Assembly (NCBI GenBank): GCA_030038195.1
Contig: JASHPJ010000087.1
Span: forward strand, 1 to 64,000
DNA: 64,000 nucleotides
Origin: Acidobacteriaceae bacterium
GTDB lineage: Bacteria > Acidobacteriota > Terriglobia > Terriglobales > Acidobacteriaceae
Direction of reading: 5' to 3'
A program made the position numbers and the translations under genes. This document shows positions 37,834 through 46,916 of this stretch, in pieces (position 1 is the stretch's first letter; each line of letters opens with the position of its first letter). The notes below the pieces were generated by a model, which worked only from the letters and a program-made list of their open reading frames with translations, ran no database searches and was not told where the DNA came from.

Positions 37834-40455
37834 TTAGCGATTTCCTGCTTTTGATTCATTGCGCTGTAGATTCTCTGTGAAGCTGAAGGTGATTTTGGGT
37901 GGGTTGGCAAAGGTCAGGGCGCCTCGAACGGAGTGGGTATGGCCGGCTTGGCGAACCTGGTTCTGGCCGAAGGTGATGGAGCCGCTGGCAACGGCGGCGT
38001 CGGCGGTCCAGTGGTCGAAGCGGGTGAGCGCGGGCGGGAACGTGGTGCGGGATGCCACAGCCGCGGCGATGGCACCGTGCTGGCAGTCGAGATGGAGCTC
38101 ACCCTTTGCCGAGCTGGCCACATCTGCGGCGGTGTAGCCGGAAAACTCCAGCTTGCCGGAGCCGCTGACTGCGCCGCCGGACCAGCGCAGGCCGATCAAC
38201 TGGCCGAGAGCCGCGGGGCTGAGTTTCTGGAAGCTGCCTTCGAGCTCGTAGGAGGGCTTGTCCTGGTCGGTAGCGGGTTTCTGCAGTGTTCCGGAGAGCT
38301 GGAGCTGGCCGCCGAGCAGGCCGGCATCGAGACCGGTGATCTCCGCGCCGTCGGGGTCGATGCGCACAGTTGCCGAGGGCTGGCGGAGTGTGACCGGACC
38401 GAGCACGAGCGAATCGGCTTTGATGGCGCCCTGCAGCCGGGGCCAGGGCGGCGCTGACGAGGGATGCAGGCGGTCAATCAGGTCCGAAAGCAGCGAACCC
38501 TGCTCGCGCACGCCAAGAATCGCTGTCTGCAGCCTGGCCGCATCCAGATCGCCCAGCGCAAGCTGGAACTGCGGCAGGCATGGCTCCGGGCCGGGGCAGT
38601 CGAGCGGAAGATCGAGGCTGGCTGTTCCTTTCACCGTGCCGTAAGAAAAGACGAACGGATCCCAGTGAAGCCGGCCATCGCCCAGGTGCAGCGTCGCCTG
38701 CACGATCTCCAGATGATTGGCAAGGAAATCCGCACGCCAGTTGGCGTCGTGGAGGGTCATGGTTCCAGAGAGCGTGTCGCCGCTCTGGCGCGCGGCTGCA
38801 GGCGCACCGTTCTCAGCAGGAATCTCCTCTGCCGGGAGCCACGGGCCGGTGACGCTGAGGTCAAGAGTGATCGGGTCTCCGGCAAGACCGTCAAAGCCGG
38901 CCTGGCTTGAAAAACCCGCAGCCTGTGCAAGCTGGCGGGCCCGCGCGAAGCTCACCGGGCCGTGCAGATCGACCTGATAGCCGCTGAGCGCCAGGCGGAA
39001 GCTGACGGCAAGCGGCGCAGCGGCGCCGGCAGGCAGCAACACGGAGCCTGCCAATGCCTGCCCGGCTGCAGCCTCCACAGCCGGCTCCAGAACGACTTTG
39101 GCGGCGCGGACAGGCTGGCTGAGGCCGCCGCCGCTCAGCTCGAAGCCGTCCAGCGTCAGCGAGCCGGTTAGCGGACCCGGCGCGGGCTCAAGACGAGCCC
39201 GCCTGGCTGGAACAGGCCGTTTCTTCTGCGGCGTCGCAGCGGGCTGAGCGGCGGAGTAGACAAGCTTGCCGCTGACGGTGCCCCCGGCTTCGAGATCGGT
39301 CGCAATGCCACTGCGCACGGTGCGCAGCAGGTCAAGACCTGCGCCGGCTGCGATCTGGTCGAGAACGAGCGTGAGGTTTGACGGCCGGATGGTGGCGGAC
39401 TGCCCAGGAGTCAGATTGCCGGTGAGCTGGATGCGGCCGTCGCCCAGCGGAGAGCTGCAGTCGAGATTTTCGAGCGAGCGCAGCGAGTAGTGATAAACGA
39501 AGGCGCAGTTGGCGTCGAAGTCAAGCGGCTCGGCGGGAGCGAACTCGGCGCGATGGACTCCGGTGGCGCGTAGTTGCGTCGTAACGTGTGCTGCGTCGGC
39601 GGTGCCATCCAGGTGCAGGTCGCCGGTGAGATCGCCGCGCCAGCCGGGGTCGGAGCCGATCAGCAGGCGGGAAAGCTGGCCAAGCTGGGCCTCGCGCCAA
39701 TCGAGGTCGATGTGGACGGGCATCTCGCGCAGCTCGGGCGCGCGATGCACGCTGGCTTCCAGGCGCACCTCCCCGGTGTCTTCCAGGTAGAGGCTTACGT
39801 CTGTGCGTGCAGGCTGGCCGCGCAGGCGGATGCGCCATTCGCCGGGATCGGCCTGCCAGAACTCGAAGTCGGTATTGACCAGGGAGAACGGGAGTTTTTC
39901 CGCGCCGTTCTTGATGTTGATGCGCGAGTTGGTGGCTTCGAGATAGGGTAGCGGCAGGACGCCGCGTGCCGGCTCACCGCTGCCAATCGATCCCGCTTTC
40001 GCGGCGGCGGTGCGGAAAAGTGGATCCAGGTTCCAGCGGCCGGGCCCGGCGCGCACCACGTTGAGGCTGGCTTCGTCCACGCTGATGGTATCGATAGCCA
40101 GGCGGCCGCGTAACAGAGAGAGCAGGCGGATGGAGGCAGTGACCGTGTTGGCGTGAAGCACCGGCTCGGCGCCGTAGGCCGGGTCTTCAGCCACATTCAG
40201 GTCAGTGATGACAAAGCCGGGCCGCGGCAACAGGCGCAGTTCGACCGACGACAGCCGCACCGGCCTGCCCAGCGAGGCGGAGATCAGCCGGGTGATGCGG
40301 GCCTTGTATTTGCCGATGCTGAACATCGGCGGAACAAAGATGAAGGCCAGAATGAGCAGGACTGCCGCGGCCAGGGCAATACGAATCCGCCGGCGGCCAG
40401 CTCCGGCACCGCGAGCAGGCGCAGCCGTTTGCCGGCCTTGGGCGTCGTGCATCAT
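37834..40455 (-). CDS. AsmA-family protein
   Basis: An 873-residue envelope protein. One N-terminal membrane helix (IALAAAVLLILAFIFVPPMF) is followed by the AsmA opening (ARITRLISASLGRPVRLSSVELRLLPRPGFVITDLNVAEDP). Next comes a very long beta-rich periplasmic region with repeated beta-groove segments and a C-terminal AsmA region (KGELHLDCQHGAIAAAV, SVRGALTFANPPKITFSF). AsmA proteins are thought to carry or position lipids between the membranes. It lies 5 bases after lepB1, so it is co-transcribed with the signal-peptidase and rnc cluster. Confidence 0.85.
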   Translation of the reverse strand: MMHDAQGRQTAAPARGAGAGRRRIRIALAAAVLLILAFIFVPPMFSIGKYKARITRLISASLGRPVRLSSVELRLLPRPGFVITDLNVAEDPAYGAEPVLHANTVTASIRLLSLLRGRLAIDTISVDEASLNVVRAGPGRWNLDPLFRTAAAKAGSIGSGEPARGVLPLPYLEATNSRINIKNGAEKLPFSLVNTDFEFWQADPGEWRIRLRGQPARTDVSLYLEDTGEVRLEASVHRAPELREMPVHIDLDWREAQLGQLSRLLIGSDPGWRGDLTGDLHLDGTADAAHVTTQLRATGVHRAEFAPAEPLDFDANCAFVYHYSLRSLENLDCSSPLGDGRIQLTGNLTPGQSATIRPSNLTLVLDQIAAGAGLDLLRTVRSGIATDLEAGGTVSGKLVYSAAQPAATPQKKRPVPARRARLEPAPGPLTGSLTLDGFELSGGGLSQPVRAAKVVLEPAVEAAAGQALAGSVLLPAGAAAPLAVSFRLALSGYQVDLHGPVSFARARQLAQAAGFSSQAGFDGLAGDPITLDLSVTGPWLPAEEIPAENGAPAAARQSGDTLSGTMTLHDANWRADFLANHLEIVQATLHLGDGRLHWDPFVFSYGTVKGTASLDLPLDCPGPEPCLPQFQLALGDLDAARLQTAILGVREQGSLLSDLIDRLHPSSAPPWPRLQGAIKADSLVLGPVTLRQPSATVRIDPDGAEITGLDAGLLGGQLQLSGTLQKPATDQDKPSYELEGSFQKLSPAALGQLIGLRWSGGAVSGSGKLEFSGYTAADVASSAKGELHLDCQHGAIAAAVASRTTFPPALTRFDHWTADAAVASGSITFGQNQVRQAGHTHSVRGALTFANPPKITFSFTENLQRNESKAGNR

Positions 40456-40460
40456 GCAGC

Positions 40461-41312
40461 CTACCGTATCAGATGGAACGTGCGGCTCCAGCGCGTGTCC
40501 GTGAAGAAATGCAGGGCCACGTGCACCATCCAGGCTACGCGGTTGCCGACCCCGGTCTCGTCGTACACCGACTCGGGCGTCTTGAACGACCAGTAGTTGA
40601 ACAGCGGGCGCCCTACGACGTTAGCTCTGGGAACGAATCCCCAGAAGCGCGAGTCGAGGCTGTCGTGGCGATTGTCGCCCATCATGAAATACATGCCGGG
40701 GGGGACGACAAGATCGCCATTGACGACGTGGTTGGGAAAGTCGACGGCCCAGCTCTCGGTGGCGCCGCCCGGCTGCGGCCACGGCGGAACGGAGGGAAAC
40801 TCGTCGAGGAACTCGGAATAATTCTGCGGGGTGGTAGGCTGCGCGTGCGGCTGGGCCTGCGCCACTCCGTTGACGATCACGATGCCGTTGCGCAGGTGGA
40901 TATGGTCGCCGGGAACGCCGATGAGGCGCTTGACCAGGAAGAGATACTGCGGCTTGCCGTCGGCGTCGGGCTCAGGCTCCGGGGAGGGCTTGATGAAGAC
41001 CACGATATCGCCGCGGCGCGGCTCGCGGTAGTGGACCAGCGGCATCCACCTGCTGGGGGGCGCGAGCGTGATGCGGTCCACGACGAGGTGATCGCCCACC
41101 AGCAGCGTCTTTTCCATGGAGCCCGAGGGGATGAGGAAGTTCTGCGCGAGGAAGGTGAGGATGAACAGACCGACGACAAGCACTCCGCAGATGCTGGCGA
41201 CTGCTTCAAAAGGAGTCTCTTCCACTTTTTCTCGGGCGGGAGCCGGTTCAGGCTTTGCCTCAGGCGGTTCCTGGACGGCCAGCGATTTTTTCTTGGTCAT
41301 GCTGTCGCTCAT
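40461..41312 (-). CDS. lepB: Signal peptidase I, copy 1
   Basis: A 283-residue inner-membrane serine protease (Ser/Lys dyad) that removes signal peptides. After an acidic tail (residues 1-35), a membrane helix (ICGVLVVGLFILTFLAQNF) precedes IPSGSMEKTLLVGDHLVV (nucleophile Ser). The general base is in LVKRLIGVPGD (Lys), and the box E motif is GDNRHDSLDSRFWGFVP. Compared with copy 2 it has the canonical PSGSM and a longer insertion (SPEPEPDADGK). Its start at 41312 lacks an obvious ribosome site. It is followed 5 bases later by asmA. Confidence 0.95.
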   Translation of the reverse strand: MSDSMTKKKSLAVQEPPEAKPEPAPAREKVEETPFEAVASICGVLVVGLFILTFLAQNFLIPSGSMEKTLLVGDHLVVDRITLAPPSRWMPLVHYREPRRGDIVVFIKPSPEPEPDADGKPQYLFLVKRLIGVPGDHIHLRNGIVIVNGVAQAQPHAQPTTPQNYSEFLDEFPSVPPWPQPGGATESWAVDFPNHVVNGDLVVPPGMYFMMGDNRHDSLDSRFWGFVPRANVVGRPLFNYWSFKTPESVYDETGVGNRVAWMVHVALHFFTDTRWSRTFHLIR

Positions 41313-41439
41313 TGCAGGGTTTTTACTAATTCAATCCAAATTCAAATTCAAAACTCGTTGAAAAGACCCCTCCAAGGAATCTCTGATTAAGTCATTGACT
41401 CATCCTCAGGGGCTAAAACTCCATTCATCTTACGGCACT

Positions 41440-41465
41440 CAGGGCACGGCTGAAGTTGTGTCCTG
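41440..41465. repeat. Palindromic repeat GGGCACGGCTTCAGCC family, copy 1
   Basis: CAGGGCAC (41440-41447) and GTGTCCTG form an imperfect 8-bp stem around GGCTGAAGTT. The adjacent CCTCAGGGGCTAAAACTCC (from 41405) looks like the rest of the same unit. It lies between the two lepB genes. A related copy is at 60801-60834. Confidence 0.45.
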
Positions 41466-41553
41466 GCACTTCGTGTTTGCCTCTGCAGCCTCGTTTTTTG
41501 ACTTAATAATTGCTTTCCGCTCCGCTCTCTCAACTCCCAGGAAGGCTCGCTCT

Positions 41554-42348
41554 TCAGTGCACGACGCGGAAGATGCGCTTCCAGCGCGCAAAGGCTGCGA
41601 GTCTTCCGGAAAGATTGCTATCGTGTCCGAGTCTATCATCCGCAGCTTGTTGCGCGGCCTGCTGCACATCGGTGCCGGAGGGGCGGCGCAGCGAGAAGTA
41701 GATGATCAGCGGCCGGGCGACGATGGCCTGCTGCGGCACAAAGCCCCAGTAGCGCGAATCGTTGCTGTGGTTGCGATTGTCGCCCAGCACGAAATACTCG
41801 CCGGCAGGCACCAGCAGCTCGCCGTTGCGGGTGAGGCTCTGCATCTGGCGCCACCAGTCGGGGTCGACCTGCGGATCCGAATAAGCCCTGGCCGGGAAGT
41901 TGTCGCGGAAGGCATTCGGAGGAGCCGGCTCGAAGGCGGCGTAGGGCTCGTCGAGCGGCAGTTCGTTGACAAAGACCTTGCCGTCTTCGATGCGCAGCCG
42001 GTCGCCGGGAAGGCCGATAACCCGCTTCACGAGCAGCCGCGGGTGGGAATGATGAAAGACGACAATGTCGCCGCGCCCCACCGGGCGATAAGGCATGATC
42101 CAGCGGCCGATGCGCCCGGCCGGCGCGTAAACCTGCTTGTTGAAGAGCAGAAAATCGCCCACCAGCAGGGTGCGCTCCATGCTTTCTGACGGGATAAGCA
42201 GCGGCTGCAGCACAAAGGTGAGCAAAAAGAGCGCGACCACCACCGTGCGCAGCAGCGAGGCCGCAGCCTCGGGCAGCGTGGGCAGGTGAGGATGGAGCCA
42301 TGCAAAGCGGCGCGGCGTCTGGACCGGCATGGCGGCGGAGGTGGTCAT
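41554..42348 (-). CDS. lepB: Signal peptidase I, copy 2
   Basis: A 264-residue paralogue of lepB copy 1. The membrane helix is VVVALFLLTFVLQPLLI. The catalytic box reads IPSESMERTLLVGDFLLF, with Glu replacing the Gly of PSGSM next to the nucleophile Ser. LVKRVIGLPGD gives Lys and GDNRNHSNDSRYWGFVP the C-terminal box. The ATG at 42348 overlaps the rnc stop (ATGA), so translation is coupled. Two signal peptidases may divide substrates; the Glu beside the active Ser might change specificity. Confidence 0.94.
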   Translation of the reverse strand: MTTSAAMPVQTPRRFAWLHPHLPTLPEAAASLLRTVVVALFLLTFVLQPLLIPSESMERTLLVGDFLLFNKQVYAPAGRIGRWIMPYRPVGRGDIVVFHHSHPRLLVKRVIGLPGDRLRIEDGKVFVNELPLDEPYAAFEPAPPNAFRDNFPARAYSDPQVDPDWWRQMQSLTRNGELLVPAGEYFVLGDNRNHSNDSRYWGFVPQQAIVARPLIIYFSLRRPSGTDVQQAAQQAADDRLGHDSNLSGRLAAFARWKRIFRVVH

Positions 42349-43145
42349 TGCCTCGTGTGCTCCTGGCCGTTCGCGCCGGAATCGGCAGCCGTCGCGTCCT
42401 CAGCGGCAGTCAGAAGAACAAGCGCGCGGCGCGCGGCGTCCTGCTCGGCGTGCTTCTTGGTGCTGCCCTGGCCGCAGGCAAGCGGCTTTTCAGGCTCGCC
42501 CGGATCGGTCTTGATGCGAACTTCGACGAGAAAGCGTTTGCGGTGATCGGGGCCGCTCTCGCTCTTGACCTGGTAGACGGGCGTGCCGGCGCGCGTGGCC
42601 TGCAGCCGCTCCTGGAGCGCGGATTTGTAGTTGCCGAGCGCGGCTCCGGAGCGCAACTCTTCCGCCAGTTGCTCGGCGGCCTCACCCATCACGCGGCTGC
42701 GCACAAAAGTGCGCACGGGATCGAGGCCGGCATCGAGAAACAGGGCGCCCATCACTGCTTCCATCGTATTCGAAAGCACGGTGCTCTTGTTGCGCAGGCC
42801 GCTGCGGTCTTCACCGCGGCTCAGACGCAGATACCGGCCCAGGCCGATGGAAACGGCGATATTGGCCATGTGATTCCGGCTGACGAGCTGTGCGCGGACC
42901 CGCGTGAGCTCGCCCTCCTGCCACTCCGGATGCGCGGCAAAAAGCGCCTCGGCCACGACCAGGTTGAGGACGGCGTCGCCCAGAAACTCCAGCCGCTCGT
43001 TGTCGCCAAGATCGGCGCCGTCTACGCCGTTCTCATGGGCAAGCTGGTTGGCCAGCGAACGGTGGGTGAGCGCGTTCACCAGGAGCTGCGGGTTGAGGAA
43101 CCGGTGTCCCAGCACGGCTTCGAGTTCACTGAGAGTTGCTTCCAC
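42345..43145 (-). CDS. rnc: Ribonuclease III
   Basis: A 266-residue double-strand RNA nuclease that matures rRNA and regulates mRNA. HRFLNPQLLVNALTHRS opens the domain, NERLEFLGDAVLNLVV is the signature helix with catalytic acids, and NTMEAVMGALFLDAG holds the second acidic set. The C-terminal dsRNA-binding domain runs from NYKSALQERLQA to STKKHAEQDAARRAL. GTG at 43145 is chosen: GAGG lies 5 bases upstream and the family usually starts near this point. A longer TTG form from 43196 lacks a ribosome site. It overlaps lepB2 by 4 bases. Confidence 0.93.
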   Translation of the reverse strand: MEATLSELEAVLGHRFLNPQLLVNALTHRSLANQLAHENGVDGADLGDNERLEFLGDAVLNLVVAEALFAAHPEWQEGELTRVRAQLVSRNHMANIAVSIGLGRYLRLSRGEDRSGLRNKSTVLSNTMEAVMGALFLDAGLDPVRTFVRSRVMGEAAEQLAEELRSGAALGNYKSALQERLQATRAGTPVYQVKSESGPDHRKRFLVEVRIKTDPGEPEKPLACGQGSTKKHAEQDAARRALVLLTAAEDATAADSGANGQEHTRQ

Positions 43146-43260
43146 GTGCGCCTCGTCCGCGAAAGGATTTACGGCAGATGGAGGAAAAGCCTGCAACCTG
43201 AAGTTCCGTGGTCCCGTTCACGCAGCCTGATGTCCGCTTCTCTCGCTCTCCCAGGGCAGG

Positions 43261-45048
43261 TCATTGCGGGTTCTGGGTTCCTTCCGGCCCTGCCTTGGCC
43301 TGTCCGCCCGCAGGAGGGGCAGGAGGATTGTCGTCGCCGGAGTCGTCGCAGCTTTGGCCCTTGACGGTATACGGGGCCTTCACGCCGCGCTCCGCCGCCA
43401 GGCGCGTGTCCTGCTGGCCGTCGCGCACCGTGAGCGCCTCCTTGTACTCGGCCAGGGCCTTGTCGCGCGCGCACTCGAGATCGAGCATGCGGCCAAGGTA
43501 AATGTGCGACCAGGCGAGCAGACGCTGCTGCTTGCTGGTGGCCAGCGTCTGCTGGAAGTCGTCAACCGCCTGATCGGGATGGCCAGTCATCAGGTCCACA
43601 CGCGCCAGGATGAAGTGAGCGCGCGCGCTGTCTGCCACCGATTGCGGCGTGCTGTTCTGCTGGGCAAGCACCTTCTGCGCCATGGAGCGGGCCTCGGCCA
43701 CATCGCCGATAGAGAGCTTGGCTTCAGCCAGGTCGAGCCCCTCCAGCTTGCGCGGCTGGCTGCGCTGCAATACGTCTTCGTCGGCCTCCTTGTCAAAGAC
43801 CGTCTGGCGGGCGCGGTGCACCTGCTGATCCACGTCCATGCTGTAGACCATCTCGCCAATGGTGTCTTTCAGGCTGGCCGGATCTTTCTCGAACTGGATC
43901 ATCTGCTCATAGAAGTACTGGGTGAGCACGAAGCCCTGGCTCATATCGTGCTGCACGGTGGCCACGCGCACGGCTTCAGCCTTTTCAAGCGAGACCTGCC
44001 GCTCATGCTCGTAGCGCGGCAGCGCGGAACGGTCGGCGGTCGGCGGAATCTTGTAGATGGGCACACCGGTATCCATGGTGCGCGCTTCGATGGCCTTGAT
44101 CAGGCACTCGATGGTCAGCGGCACGGTGTCAGACCGGTAGCGGAAGGCGATGGGAGCGTCGCGAATCTCCTTGAGGATAGGCTGGGTGCGATCAATGGCG
44201 TTGGCGCGGGCCAGCAGCAGCGGATCGATTACGTAGTGCAGATAGGCGTGGCGTACATCGGTCATGCGAATCTTGCCATCTGCCGGCGACACCACCACGA
44301 TGTAATCCGTTCCGTAGATACGCGCATTCACCATGCCCGGCGACAGCATGGGCTCGATGACCACGATGAAACGCCGGCCATCGTAAGTGGACGCGGGCAT
44401 CTTGAGGTAGAGATTGGTGTCCACAATCATCTGCGACAGCGCATCGTGCACCATGGCCGCTTCGTCGTCGTAGGTCAGGTGAACCGTCAGCCAGATGCCG
44501 TGCAGGTCTACGGCTTCGGCAAAGGCCTTGAGAATGGGCACAATCTCCGCCACCTGGGTCGCATCGGGCGGCATCTCCGTCAGATCGGCGGTGACTTCCA
44601 TCTCCGGAGGCGGCGTAAGGTAGAGCGCCAGCGAAACGTACTGCGAGATGTCGCTCTCCGTACCGGTCATGCGGTGCTGTGCAATGTAAAGGCACAGCGC
44701 ATCGCGCCTGGCGCGCGCATCCTCGCTTTTGGCCAGCGCCTGGTTGATTTCATCGCGCACGCGTTTGCGCACCGGGGCGCTCTGCTCCAGGCCCTCGTCG
44801 TATCCGCAGGCGTTGAGCGCCGCCGCCATGATGAAGACCGGCTCAGAGCTGATGAGCGAGATGGTTGGGCCGGCGGGATCGATGAGCGAAGGCGCTTTTT
44901 CCTGCGCATAGAGCTGGCCCGGCGAAGAACTGCTGCTAGAGGAGTTGCTGGAAGACTGGGCGCTTAGCGGAGCCGCAGCCAGCATCGACAGGACGCACAG
45001 AGCCGCTAAGGAAAAGCGCGCCCGAGAGCGGGATGGAAACAACTTCAT
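43261..45048 (-). CDS. Exported TPR-containing hypothetical protein
   Basis: A 595-residue protein with signal peptide (FSLAALCVLSMLAAAPLSAQ) and then a Ser-rich stretch of about 13 residues. The middle part has metallopeptidase-like context (an H in YLHYVI, charged helices) but no HExxH, so I do not call it a peptidase. The last third carries TPR-like helices (ARAHFILARVDLMTGHPDQAVDDFQQTL, KALAEYKEALTV). The C-terminal tail is Pro/Gly-rich. Function is unknown. It is upstream of, and close to, rnc on the same strand. Confidence 0.7.
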   Translation of the reverse strand: MKLFPSRSRARFSLAALCVLSMLAAAPLSAQSSSNSSSSSSSPGQLYAQEKAPSLIDPAGPTISLISSEPVFIMAAALNACGYDEGLEQSAPVRKRVRDEINQALAKSEDARARRDALCLYIAQHRMTGTESDISQYVSLALYLTPPPEMEVTADLTEMPPDATQVAEIVPILKAFAEAVDLHGIWLTVHLTYDDEAAMVHDALSQMIVDTNLYLKMPASTYDGRRFIVVIEPMLSPGMVNARIYGTDYIVVVSPADGKIRMTDVRHAYLHYVIDPLLLARANAIDRTQPILKEIRDAPIAFRYRSDTVPLTIECLIKAIEARTMDTGVPIYKIPPTADRSALPRYEHERQVSLEKAEAVRVATVQHDMSQGFVLTQYFYEQMIQFEKDPASLKDTIGEMVYSMDVDQQVHRARQTVFDKEADEDVLQRSQPRKLEGLDLAEAKLSIGDVAEARSMAQKVLAQQNSTPQSVADSARAHFILARVDLMTGHPDQAVDDFQQTLATSKQQRLLAWSHIYLGRMLDLECARDKALAEYKEALTVRDGQQDTRLAAERGVKAPYTVKGQSCDDSGDDNPPAPPAGGQAKAGPEGTQNPQ

Positions 45049-45292: not shown

Positions 45293-45976
45293 TCATCCGC
45301 GAACGGCGACGCCGGAGAACGACAGCACGGCAAGGCCGCGGACCGGCTGGCCGAAGAAGCGGGCCGGCTCAAAGACGCTGAACAGCAACAGGTTTTCGAC
45401 GCGCGAGCGAGTCACCGGATCGGTGGGACCGGAGACGATGCGGTAGTCGTACACCTGTCCCTCGTCGTTGATATAGGCCTCGACCACCACCGGAGCGGCG
45501 GCGGCGCTGATGTCGTCGCTGTCGGCTCCGCTCGAGAGGTAGAGCAGCCGCGGCGCGGTGGCCATGCCCAGAGGCTCGTCGGCGCTGGCCTGGGCCGTCT
45601 CAGGCTTGGCGAACATGCTCACCATGAGAATCACCGTGCCCAGCAACAGCACGGCGCTGGCAAAGCCAGCCGCGGCCTGCAGCAGGAATGGACCCACGGT
45701 GTTCTTCCAAACCAGCCCCGCAGCCTCAAGGCGGCTGCGGCCCATGCGCGCGCGTTCCTGGCTCACGGCAACCCGAATCCGGAGCAGCAGATCGGCAGGC
45801 TCGGGCACAGAGCCCAGCGATGTGAGCGAAGCCTGGGTGCGGCGAAGCGACTCCCACTCGCGGGCGCAGGACGCGCAGTCCTTGAGATGAGCGGCGATCT
45901 CCTGCATCTCGTAGCCGTTGAGCCGGCCGTCAAGATACTCGGTAAATCCTGCTTGCACAGCACTGCAGTCGTTCAT
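45293..45976 (-). CDS. Anti-sigma factor with zinc finger and TonB-C-like domain
   Basis: A 227-residue single-pass inner-membrane protein. Residues 4-37 show a zinc-finger anti-sigma motif (H30-x3-C34-x2-C37, with an early Cys4). A membrane helix lies at about 97-123. The periplasmic part (162-222) reads VEAYINDEGQVYDYRIVSGP...SVFEPARFFGQPVRG, the pattern of TonB/energy-transducer C-terminal domains. So the anti-sigma end joins a TonB-like end. ATG 45976 has GAGGAGG upstream and overlaps the sigma stop by 4 bases, so the two are translationally coupled. Confidence 0.8.
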   Translation of the reverse strand: MNDCSAVQAGFTEYLDGRLNGYEMQEIAAHLKDCASCAREWESLRRTQASLTSLGSVPEPADLLLRIRVAVSQERARMGRSRLEAAGLVWKNTVGPFLLQAAAGFASAVLLLGTVILMVSMFAKPETAQASADEPLGMATAPRLLYLSSGADSDDISAAAAPVVVEAYINDEGQVYDYRIVSGPTDPVTRSRVENLLLFSVFEPARFFGQPVRGLAVLSFSGVAVRG

Positions 45977-46647
45977 CGCGCCTCCTCTCCCAAAGGTAGC
46001 CCGCAAGCTGCCGCGGCGGCGGGGTGCGCGCCGCGATCCGGTGAGCCAAGCAGGACTTTCAGACACGCCCTGCCGCGCACCAGGCGGGACTTGACCGTTC
46101 CCAGATTGACGCCCTGCATCTCGGCCACTTCCTCGTAGACGAAGCCTTCAATATCACGCAGGATGAGCGTGGTGCGGTAGGGCTCGGGAACCTGGCCCAG
46201 CGCCCACTCCACGCGTTCACGATTCTCCTGGTGCACGGCCGCCTCGTAGGGCGACTCGGCAGGATCGACCAGCATGTCTTTCAGAAGTACGGGAGTTCCC
46301 GACTCCGGGTCGGTCAGCTCCTGCTCGATGGGAATCTCCTGCTGCTTGTGGCGCATCCACCAGCGGCGCTGGTTAGAGGCCTCGCGCAGGGCGATGCGAT
46401 AGATCCAGGTGCGCAGCGAAGATTCACCATGGAAGCCGCCGAGGCCACGGAAGACCTTGACGAAGACTTCCTGGGTAAGATCGGCCGCGTCACTGCGGTC
46501 GCGCACGGTGCGCGCCAGCAGCGAATAGATGGGTTGATGGTAGCGCGCGATCAGCCACGCAAAAGCTTCCTCAGAACCCGCCCGCAGCTCTTCTATAAGA
46601 GCGGCTTCTTCAGACTGGAGCGTCAGCGCGCTGGCTAGATTGCCCAT
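45973..46647 (-). CDS. ECF sigma factor (RpoE-like)
   Basis: A 224-residue sigma factor. Region 2 is YSLLARTVRDRSDAADLTQEVFVKVFRGL and STLRTW-like SSLRTWIYRIALREASN. Region 4 is YRTTLILRDIEGFVYEEVAEM and VNLGTVKSRLVRGRACL, the HTH that reads -35 elements. Regions 3 and 1.1 are absent, as expected for ECF type. ATG 46647 has AGGCGG about 8 bases upstream; earlier in-frame codons have none. It is cotranscribed with the zinc-finger anti-sigma protein. Confidence 0.94.
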   Translation of the reverse strand: MGNLASALTLQSEEAALIEELRAGSEEAFAWLIARYHQPIYSLLARTVRDRSDAADLTQEVFVKVFRGLGGFHGESSLRTWIYRIALREASNQRRWWMRHKQQEIPIEQELTDPESGTPVLLKDMLVDPAESPYEAAVHQENRERVEWALGQVPEPYRTTLILRDIEGFVYEEVAEMQGVNLGTVKSRLVRGRACLKVLLGSPDRGAHPAAAAACGLPLGEEAR

Positions 46648-46852: not shown

Positions 46853-46916
46853 CATTCGTGCTCACTACTGCCTTAGACACCGGAACGGCGGAAAGGGTTC
46901 CCGGAAAGCACGAATG
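46853..46916. repeat. Inverted repeat upstream of the sigma factor gene
   Basis: CATTCGTGCT (46853-46862) and AGCACGAATG (46907-46916) are perfect 10-bp arms with 44 bases between. The inner part holds CCGGAACGG and GGTTCCCGG. It lies about 200 bases upstream of the sigma-factor ATG and 67 bases from the oxidoreductase stop. It may be an operator or remnant element. Confidence 0.35.

Follow-up and report, generated by a model that had tools for sequence, protein, structure and literature searches.

How a bacterium adjusts its stock of TonB-ExbB-ExbD to what its many receptors require is not known to have been settled. The question is raised here by a locus in which the gene of an ECF sigma factor is followed by that of an anti-sigma factor with a TonB-like C-terminus: what could such a domain sense, and which genes would the sigma factor serve? 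The window, that is, the whole stretch of DNA analyzed, comprises 64,000 nt of an Acidobacteriaceae bacterium, from a family of soil bacteria (GCA_030038195.1, contig JASHPJ010000087.1, positions 1-64,000).

The sigma/anti-sigma pair and its neighbours

The pair and the genes that follow it on the same strand are these:

45973..46647, minus strand: ECF sigma factor gene, 224 aa (Pfam Sigma70_r2 E 1.3e-13, Sigma70_r4_2 E 5.9e-13)
45293..45976, minus strand: anti-sigma factor gene, 227 aa, ATG at 45976, TonB-like C-terminus
45863..45967, minus strand: zf-HC2 zinc finger of the anti-sigma factor, residues 4-38 (Pfam PF13490 E 7.1e-7, 29.7 bits, cut-off 22.2)
45608..45688, minus strand: membrane helix of the anti-sigma factor, residues 97-123 (hydrophobic stretch in the sequence, hydropathy peak 2.34)
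43261..45048, minus strand: gene of a secreted TPR protein, 595 aa (Pfam TPR_12 E 1.4e-8)
42345..43196, minus strand: rnc, ribonuclease III (Pfam and synteny)
41554..42348, minus strand: lepB copy 1, signal peptidase I (Peptidase_S26 E 6.8e-45)
40461..41312, minus strand: lepB copy 2, signal peptidase I (Peptidase_S26 E 2.1e-42)
37834..40455, minus strand: gene of an AsmA-like protein (Pfam AsmA E 2.8e-15), the last of the co-directional run

The preliminary description had read the two first genes as an ECF sigma factor and a zinc-finger anti-sigma factor starting at 45976, with frames overlapping by 4 bases, ligands H30, C34 and C37 and a helix at 97-123, and this was borne out by the coordinates and the PF13490 match. 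None of the 42 rows of the anti-sigma alignment departs from C4, H30, C34 or C37, all 42 aligned family members have a zf-HC2 match, and 97-123 is the single strongly hydrophobic segment of the protein. In the Pfam scan of the anti-sigma factor, domains of the FecR or STN type were absent at E up to 10. Among PDB sequences the anti-sigma profile matches RsiW best (5wuq, E 3.9e-5), and the window protein shares with RsiW and other zf-HC2 (class I, ZAS-type) anti-sigma factors the H-x3-C-x2-C motif, a gene placed right after that of an ECF sigma factor and one membrane helix. By domain and by adjacency to the sigma gene the protein is an anti-sigma factor of this type, with a predicted role in inhibiting the sigma factor. 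The sigma gene lies directly upstream of the anti-sigma gene in 55 of 56 loci, the exception (L033) having only 164 bases of upstream sequence.

Downstream of the pair, 38 of the 56 loci examined contain a homologue of the TPR protein and 29 a lepB-like gene, most flanks extending over 4 kb or less. The 595-aa secreted TPR protein encoded between the pair and rnc is a candidate partner of the anti-sigma factor. The two neighbouring lepB genes (40461-42348, minus strand) belong to the gene run of the sigma pair and stand immediately behind rnc, an arrangement that resembles the rpoE-rse / lepA-lepB-rnc neighbourhood of E. coli. When the sigma factor was compared with NCBIfam, TIGR02937 (sigma70-ECF) scored above its cut-off, and the PRK11922, RpoE and SigW models were among the best rows, all below their own cut-offs. 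The RpoE and SigW rows and the neighbours rnc, lepB and AsmA would suit a general RpoE-like envelope-stress sigma factor, for which tonB would be one of several targets and the TonB fold only a sensor of peptides or stress, so that TonB status would not be the signal. We regard this explanation as doubtful; the genome-wide promoter searches described below also bear on it.

A C-terminal domain with the fold of TonB

The region of the anti-sigma factor that lies beyond the membrane helix contains the following domain:

45296..45493, minus strand: domain with the TonB-CTD fold, residues 162-227, assigned by structure comparison, with an extra strand before it, near residues 144-149

A Pfam scan of the full-length protein returned no row for TonB_C, and when the last 70 residues alone were compared with PF03544 the match (E 0.1, 13.5 bits) stayed below the cut-off of 24.6. 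When E values up to 10, a lax limit, were allowed, a TonB_C row was obtained for 21 of 42 family members (best E 5.3e-4), the window protein not being among them. A claim of TonB_C would thus fail by Pfam alone, and it is the comparison of folds that carries the case. The AlphaFold model of the full-length protein is weak (mean pLDDT 62) and was used only alongside a model of the 90-residue domain (mean pLDDT 77.5; three strands, one helix, four strands). With the full-length model, the first 18 Foldseek rows were C-terminal domains of TonB, FusB, HasB or TolA; with the domain model, the first 14 were those of TonB, FusB or TolA. The best match, 6i97_D, had probability 1.00, TM 0.68 and E 2.4e-3, and E 0.001 was reached by no Foldseek row. 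Superposition with VIA-align 2 on the same structure reached Z 8.2 (rmsd 3.2, 85 residues); the first 20 rows were all TonB, FusB, TolA or HasB, and the next, unrelated row had Z 3.7. Profile-profile comparison with the TonB C-terminal domains of the same family gave probability 71.6 and E 3.5e-5 over 54 columns. These comparisons show, at the level of predicted models, that the C-terminus of the anti-sigma factor has the TonB-CTD fold. The earlier proposal of a TonB-like end, which had been made to depend on a profile match or a TonB arrangement of strands and helix, therefore holds for the fold, in that the predicted domain displays the TonB arrangement, and not for a Pfam match above the cut-off.

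The domain is also the best conserved segment of the protein. Among 69 homologues, mean pairwise identity is 0.63 for the TonB-like part (162-227), 0.55 for the helix, 0.45 for the zinc-finger part (1-50) and 0.27 for the linker. In comparison with the RsiW type, the window anti-sigma factor adds this periplasmic domain, and some homologues (L077, L078, L079, L145) have lost the zinc ligands and not the TonB-like domain, L145 giving no Pfam row at all. Relatives that match over almost the full length, with identities of 53-82%, come from 41 loci in GTDB genomes, each bearing the title Acidobacteria, Acidobacteriaceae or a near one. The cultured relatives Terracidiphilus gabretensis S55 and Acidicapsa dinghuensis 4GSKX have the gene. 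An anti-sigma match at 1e-10 is present in 57 of the 60 family genomes sampled, and in 46 of the 48 with a completeness of 90% or more and a contamination of 5% or less, so that the pair with a TonB-like end, as the orthologue mapping suggested earlier was meant to establish, is conserved in the family. In a sample of the phylum, the domain profile matched 29 of 31 genomes of the same family and both genomes of a second family in the class; in other parts of the phylum it also picks out proteins whose tails are of the TonB type. Two of the 16 loci matched outside the family are sigma-linked anti-sigma factors (L139 and L145). L139, from another family of the phylum, combines a zf-HC2 domain over the cut-off with a TonB-like end beside an ECF sigma factor and is 38% identical. 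The other outside-family loci were by eye of the TonB, TPR-TonB or M56-TonB type, with L149 and L150 ambiguous; L150 also matches the sigma factor weakly (27% over a stretch of 92 residues).

Having the fold does not make the domain a working TonB. The TonB of the same genome (contig C122) and the anti-sigma domain have in common the fold and the core G-x-V, S-G-P, F/Y-x-P-A and G-x-P-V motifs; the anti-sigma factor differs in being joined to a zinc finger and in lacking the YP motif, the proline-rich span and the membrane histidine. In TonB, the YP motif precedes the sheet of the C-terminal domain; it is invariant in the family's own TonBs, and was found in the last 100 residues of none of the 69 anti-sigma homologues. 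Residues 124-161, where a proline-rich span was looked for, hold 3 prolines, and the folded part begins about 20 residues past the membrane helix. No histidine is present within the membrane helix of the window protein, whereas that of TonB (SHLS) serves coupling to ExbBD (PMC10907165). With a short linker, no YP and no helix histidine, the domain would hardly be able to reach an outer-membrane receptor as TonB does, and we infer that it stays beside the inner membrane, unable to span the periplasm. The preliminary description had considered direct binding of TonB boxes of outer-membrane receptors, which the TonB-CTD fold itself would favour; the features just listed leave this unsupported, and with no promoter link to Oar either, we consider it very improbable. 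The same description had pointed to the large Oar receptors encoded in the window. On promoter evidence from the window that link was rejected, as the sigma-type promoter pattern tested occurs at neither Oar gene and only once in the window, before the sigma gene.

Promoters of the sigma gene and of the tonB operon

Upstream of the pair, footprint and pattern searches identified one element:

46873..46902, minus strand: ECF-type promoter GGGAAC-N15-GGTGTCTAA, 225 nt before the ATG of the sigma gene

GGGAAC-N15-GGTGTCTAA is common to the regions upstream of the sigma genes in the window and in 37 further loci (among those listed). Of the 38 upstream stretches of 260 nt, 24 contain the strict form, 28 a looser form and 34 GGTGTC; outside the family, the sigma genes of L139 and L145 carry GGGAACTT...GGTGTC. 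Scored as a bipartite motif, 55 of 56 sigma upstream regions reached at least 13, a value also reached by 76 of 1500 random stretches. Autoregulation is usual for ECF sigma factors, and a promoter shared by the sigma genes fits it; the sigma factor would thus transcribe its own gene.

When the genome of the window was searched with GGAAC-N15/16-GGTGTCTA, 4 sites were obtained against 1 in the reversed control: one before the sigma gene, one 36 nt before tonB (C122) and two at other genes (C99 and C18). The promoter cores of the sigma gene and of tonB are identical in this genome. As to the two other sites, one (L160, G000:C99:25007-25034) precedes the gene of a 458-aa secreted protein and one (L159, G000:C18:21952-21979) a short membrane-type frame. 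Two further patterns were discarded: GAACACTT-N12/15-GTGTC, derived from relatives, gave 1 site with no obvious target in the window's genome and 1 in the control, and GGAAC-N17/18-GTCTAA was too loose and not enriched in that genome (6 sites against 7 in the control), which counts against the link; 4 of the 6 have the longer GGTGTCTAA and led to the pattern used above.

In 60 genomes of the family, 47 exact sites were found in 28 genomes, against 12 in the reversed control. They are distributed as 18 at tonB, 12 at sigma genes and 17 elsewhere, i.e. 30 of 47 at sigma or tonB. The assignment of sites, here and for the tonB-type pattern below, used 59 tonB places and 20 of the 57 anti-sigma places. 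A check by eye put the sites classed as other either on different contigs from the unused anti-sigma places or at a large distance from them; one such site, in G333, lies 94 bases from the end of its sequence, and the tonB of that genome is split. The genes behind the sites were identified from a list covering 30 loci of the 47 sites. Since the 17 sites elsewhere are close to the 12 of the control, the excess lies at sigma and tonB. These 17 sites are relevant to the envelope-stress explanation. ExbD-like genes follow two of the sites and genes of secreted TPR proteins some others, as a broader regulon would predict, but the total of 17, near that of the control, gives little sign of a wide regulon with the exact motif.

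The tonB gene was found in 59 of the 60 genomes, in an operon that is tonB-exbB-exbD-exbD by Pfam, and its own type of pattern occurs at 54 sites in 48 genomes against 2 in the control; 47 are at tonB, 2 at sigma genes and 5 elsewhere. All 55 readable tonB upstream regions reached a bipartite motif score of at least 15 out of 16. Of 1500 random stretches, among which loci with true promoters were included, 6 did so. In relatives, secF lies just upstream of the tonB operon (L161/L193, G000 contig C122; L199), which places the Ton motor beside a protein-export gene and may be likened to lepB beside the sigma pair. The sigma-type motif was also seen at L176 and L187, directly ahead of genes that are ExbD-like by their sequence and lie apart from the principal tonB operon.

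Whether the same sigma factor reads both promoters in the whole family is less clear. In 31 of 55 genomes the tonB promoter has GGGAGC; in these the sigma promoter keeps GGAAC, with GGGGTC or GGAGTC as the -10 in 28 of the 30 readable. The sigma and tonB promoters would have been expected to covary, but in this large GGGAGC subclade they do not, and another sigma factor may therefore read tonB there. The flank of the -35 also differs, being AAA at tonB and often CTT at sigma genes, and two genomes have a tonB promoter with no anti-sigma match at 1e-10, G210 (99% complete) and G346 (83% complete). An explanation along these lines is that a different ECF sigma factor with a similar promoter drives tonB, the resemblance being coincidental or ancestral. 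The missing letter-by-letter covariation, G210 and the -35 flank would all agree with it. It is unlikely, in our judgement, because the cores at the two promoters are identical in the window's genome and the gene of this sigma factor is the sole ECF sigma gene found at the 54 tonB-type sites (at 2 of them, the other five being partly identified). The link between the sigma factor and tonB is therefore likely for the window's clade and no more than possible for the GGGAGC clade; in its own clade, the window sigma factor likely reads the tonB promoter, as judged from the motifs.

Possible proteolytic control and relation to known systems

If the sigma factor serves tonB, the question is how it would be released. 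Just past the membrane helix the anti-sigma factor has a candidate site for cleavage:

45587..45595, minus strand: A-Q-A, residues 128-130, putative signal-peptidase-I-type site ([AV]x[AG] pattern)

An [AV]x[AG] after the helix, with an aspartate close behind, is present in 69 of 69 homologues. Because such pairs are also present at other conserved columns of the 69-homologue alignment, a shuffle test was used: all 13 representatives with less than 60% identity have the pattern, while shuffles gave a mean of 3.4 and none of 2000 reached 13. L077, L078, L079 and L145 also keep an [AV]x[AG] or AFA stretch past the helix; in L139 a strict A-x-A is missing there by eye. In a small by-eye control with zf-HC2 proteins of the same genome, L105 has ASA and none is clear in L101, L102, L103 and L106. 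The genome also has four M50 matches over the cut-off, one of them a 474-aa frame. The anti-sigma factor may thus be removed by signal peptidase followed by a site-2 protease. The length of its membrane helix counts against cleavage, since hydrophobic stretches of 27 residues are typical of uncut membrane anchors and long for a cleaved signal peptide. This length also speaks against constitutive cutting at A-x-A, which would reduce the anti-sigma factor to a short stub in the membrane and release the TonB-like domain as a separate soluble periplasmic protein, perhaps a competitor of TonB; an anti-sigma factor of that kind would moreover be expected to be lost, and we find the idea improbable. 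In favour of constitutive cutting, the site is strong by its letters, and there is a precedent in RsiP, where a change of VQS to VQA is described as leading to constitutive degradation (PMC8844934). Regulated cutting is described for RsiV and RsiP, in which signal peptidase cuts at a site past the helix and the site-2 protease RasP then acts on the product (PMC6066255, PMC8844934).

The reading that we favour, tentatively and at somewhat less than even chances, is that the pair exerts feedback control on the supply of the Ton motor, with removal of the anti-sigma factor by signal peptidase and a site-2 protease. The TonB-CTD-fold domain would act as a sensor on the periplasmic side of the inner membrane, close to its surface. 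Docking of free TonB, or of another partner, on the look-alike domain would protect the anti-sigma factor; when the partner is scarce or engaged elsewhere, signal peptidase I, for which lepB genes are present downstream of the pair, would gain access to the A-x-A site, an RseP-type site-2 protease would clear the remainder, and the sigma factor thus freed would make more sigma factor and more TonB, ExbB and ExbD. The promoters that do not covary and G210 speak against this reading, as does a downstream lepB in no more than 29 of 56 loci, many of these having short flanks. The identity of the partner, TonB docking and the direction of the signal are what we infer here; free TonB is thought the likeliest partner because the domain mimics the TonB C-terminal domain and the output is tonB. 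In its full form, a closed loop in which a copy of the TonB C-terminal domain reads free Ton capacity and a shortage leads through the signal peptidase cut and the sigma factor to tonB-exbB-exbD, the model is possible though on the whole rather unlikely; part of it is that the cut would free a TonB-like fragment of about 97 residues, which could act as a brake.

There are precedents for the two main elements of feedback control. That an anti-sigma factor can be guarded by a partner from the Ton system is exemplified by FoxR, reported to be guarded from proteolysis by FoxA (PMC11637429); the FecIRA and FoxIRA surface signalling systems likewise tie an anti-sigma factor to the Ton system, whereas the window pair has neither a FecR/STN domain nor an adjacent TonB-dependent transducer. 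The presence of a TolA/TonB-like C-terminal domain in an ECF circuit has its precedent in PUMA3 (VreA-VreR-VreI) of Pseudomonas aeruginosa, whose sigma factor VreI is described as inducing exbB2 and exbD2 (PMC2729926). According to that description the domain belongs to the separate periplasmic protein VreA, where it is joined to STN, while here it is on the anti-sigma factor, with no STN or FecR (PMC2729926). Bacillus subtilis RsiV and Bacillus thuringiensis RsiP share with the window protein a signal-peptidase-type site just past the helix, known here as a pattern of letters; they differ in the sensor, which in the window protein is TonB-like, its Pfam scan giving no extracellular domain of the RsiV (DUF4179) type. 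The window protein is a class I anti-sigma factor with a TonB-like sensor, probably wired to tonB. In the open-licence papers searched we found no description of an anti-sigma factor fused to a TonB C-terminal domain.

If the loop were true, it would amount to supply-and-demand control of the Ton motor through molecular mimicry of TonB, with a direct sensor of Ton supply whose domain, protease site and promoter are defined. It would also be a second case, after PUMA3, of a TonB/TolA-type C-terminal domain inside ECF signalling. Control of anti-sigma factors by signal peptidase, described for Bacillus and Clostridioides, would likewise extend to a Gram-negative phylum. The TonB fold may serve signalling in yet another way in this phylum, in L147 and L153, which by eye are M56 (BlaR-type) peptidase-like proteins with TonB_C-type tails.
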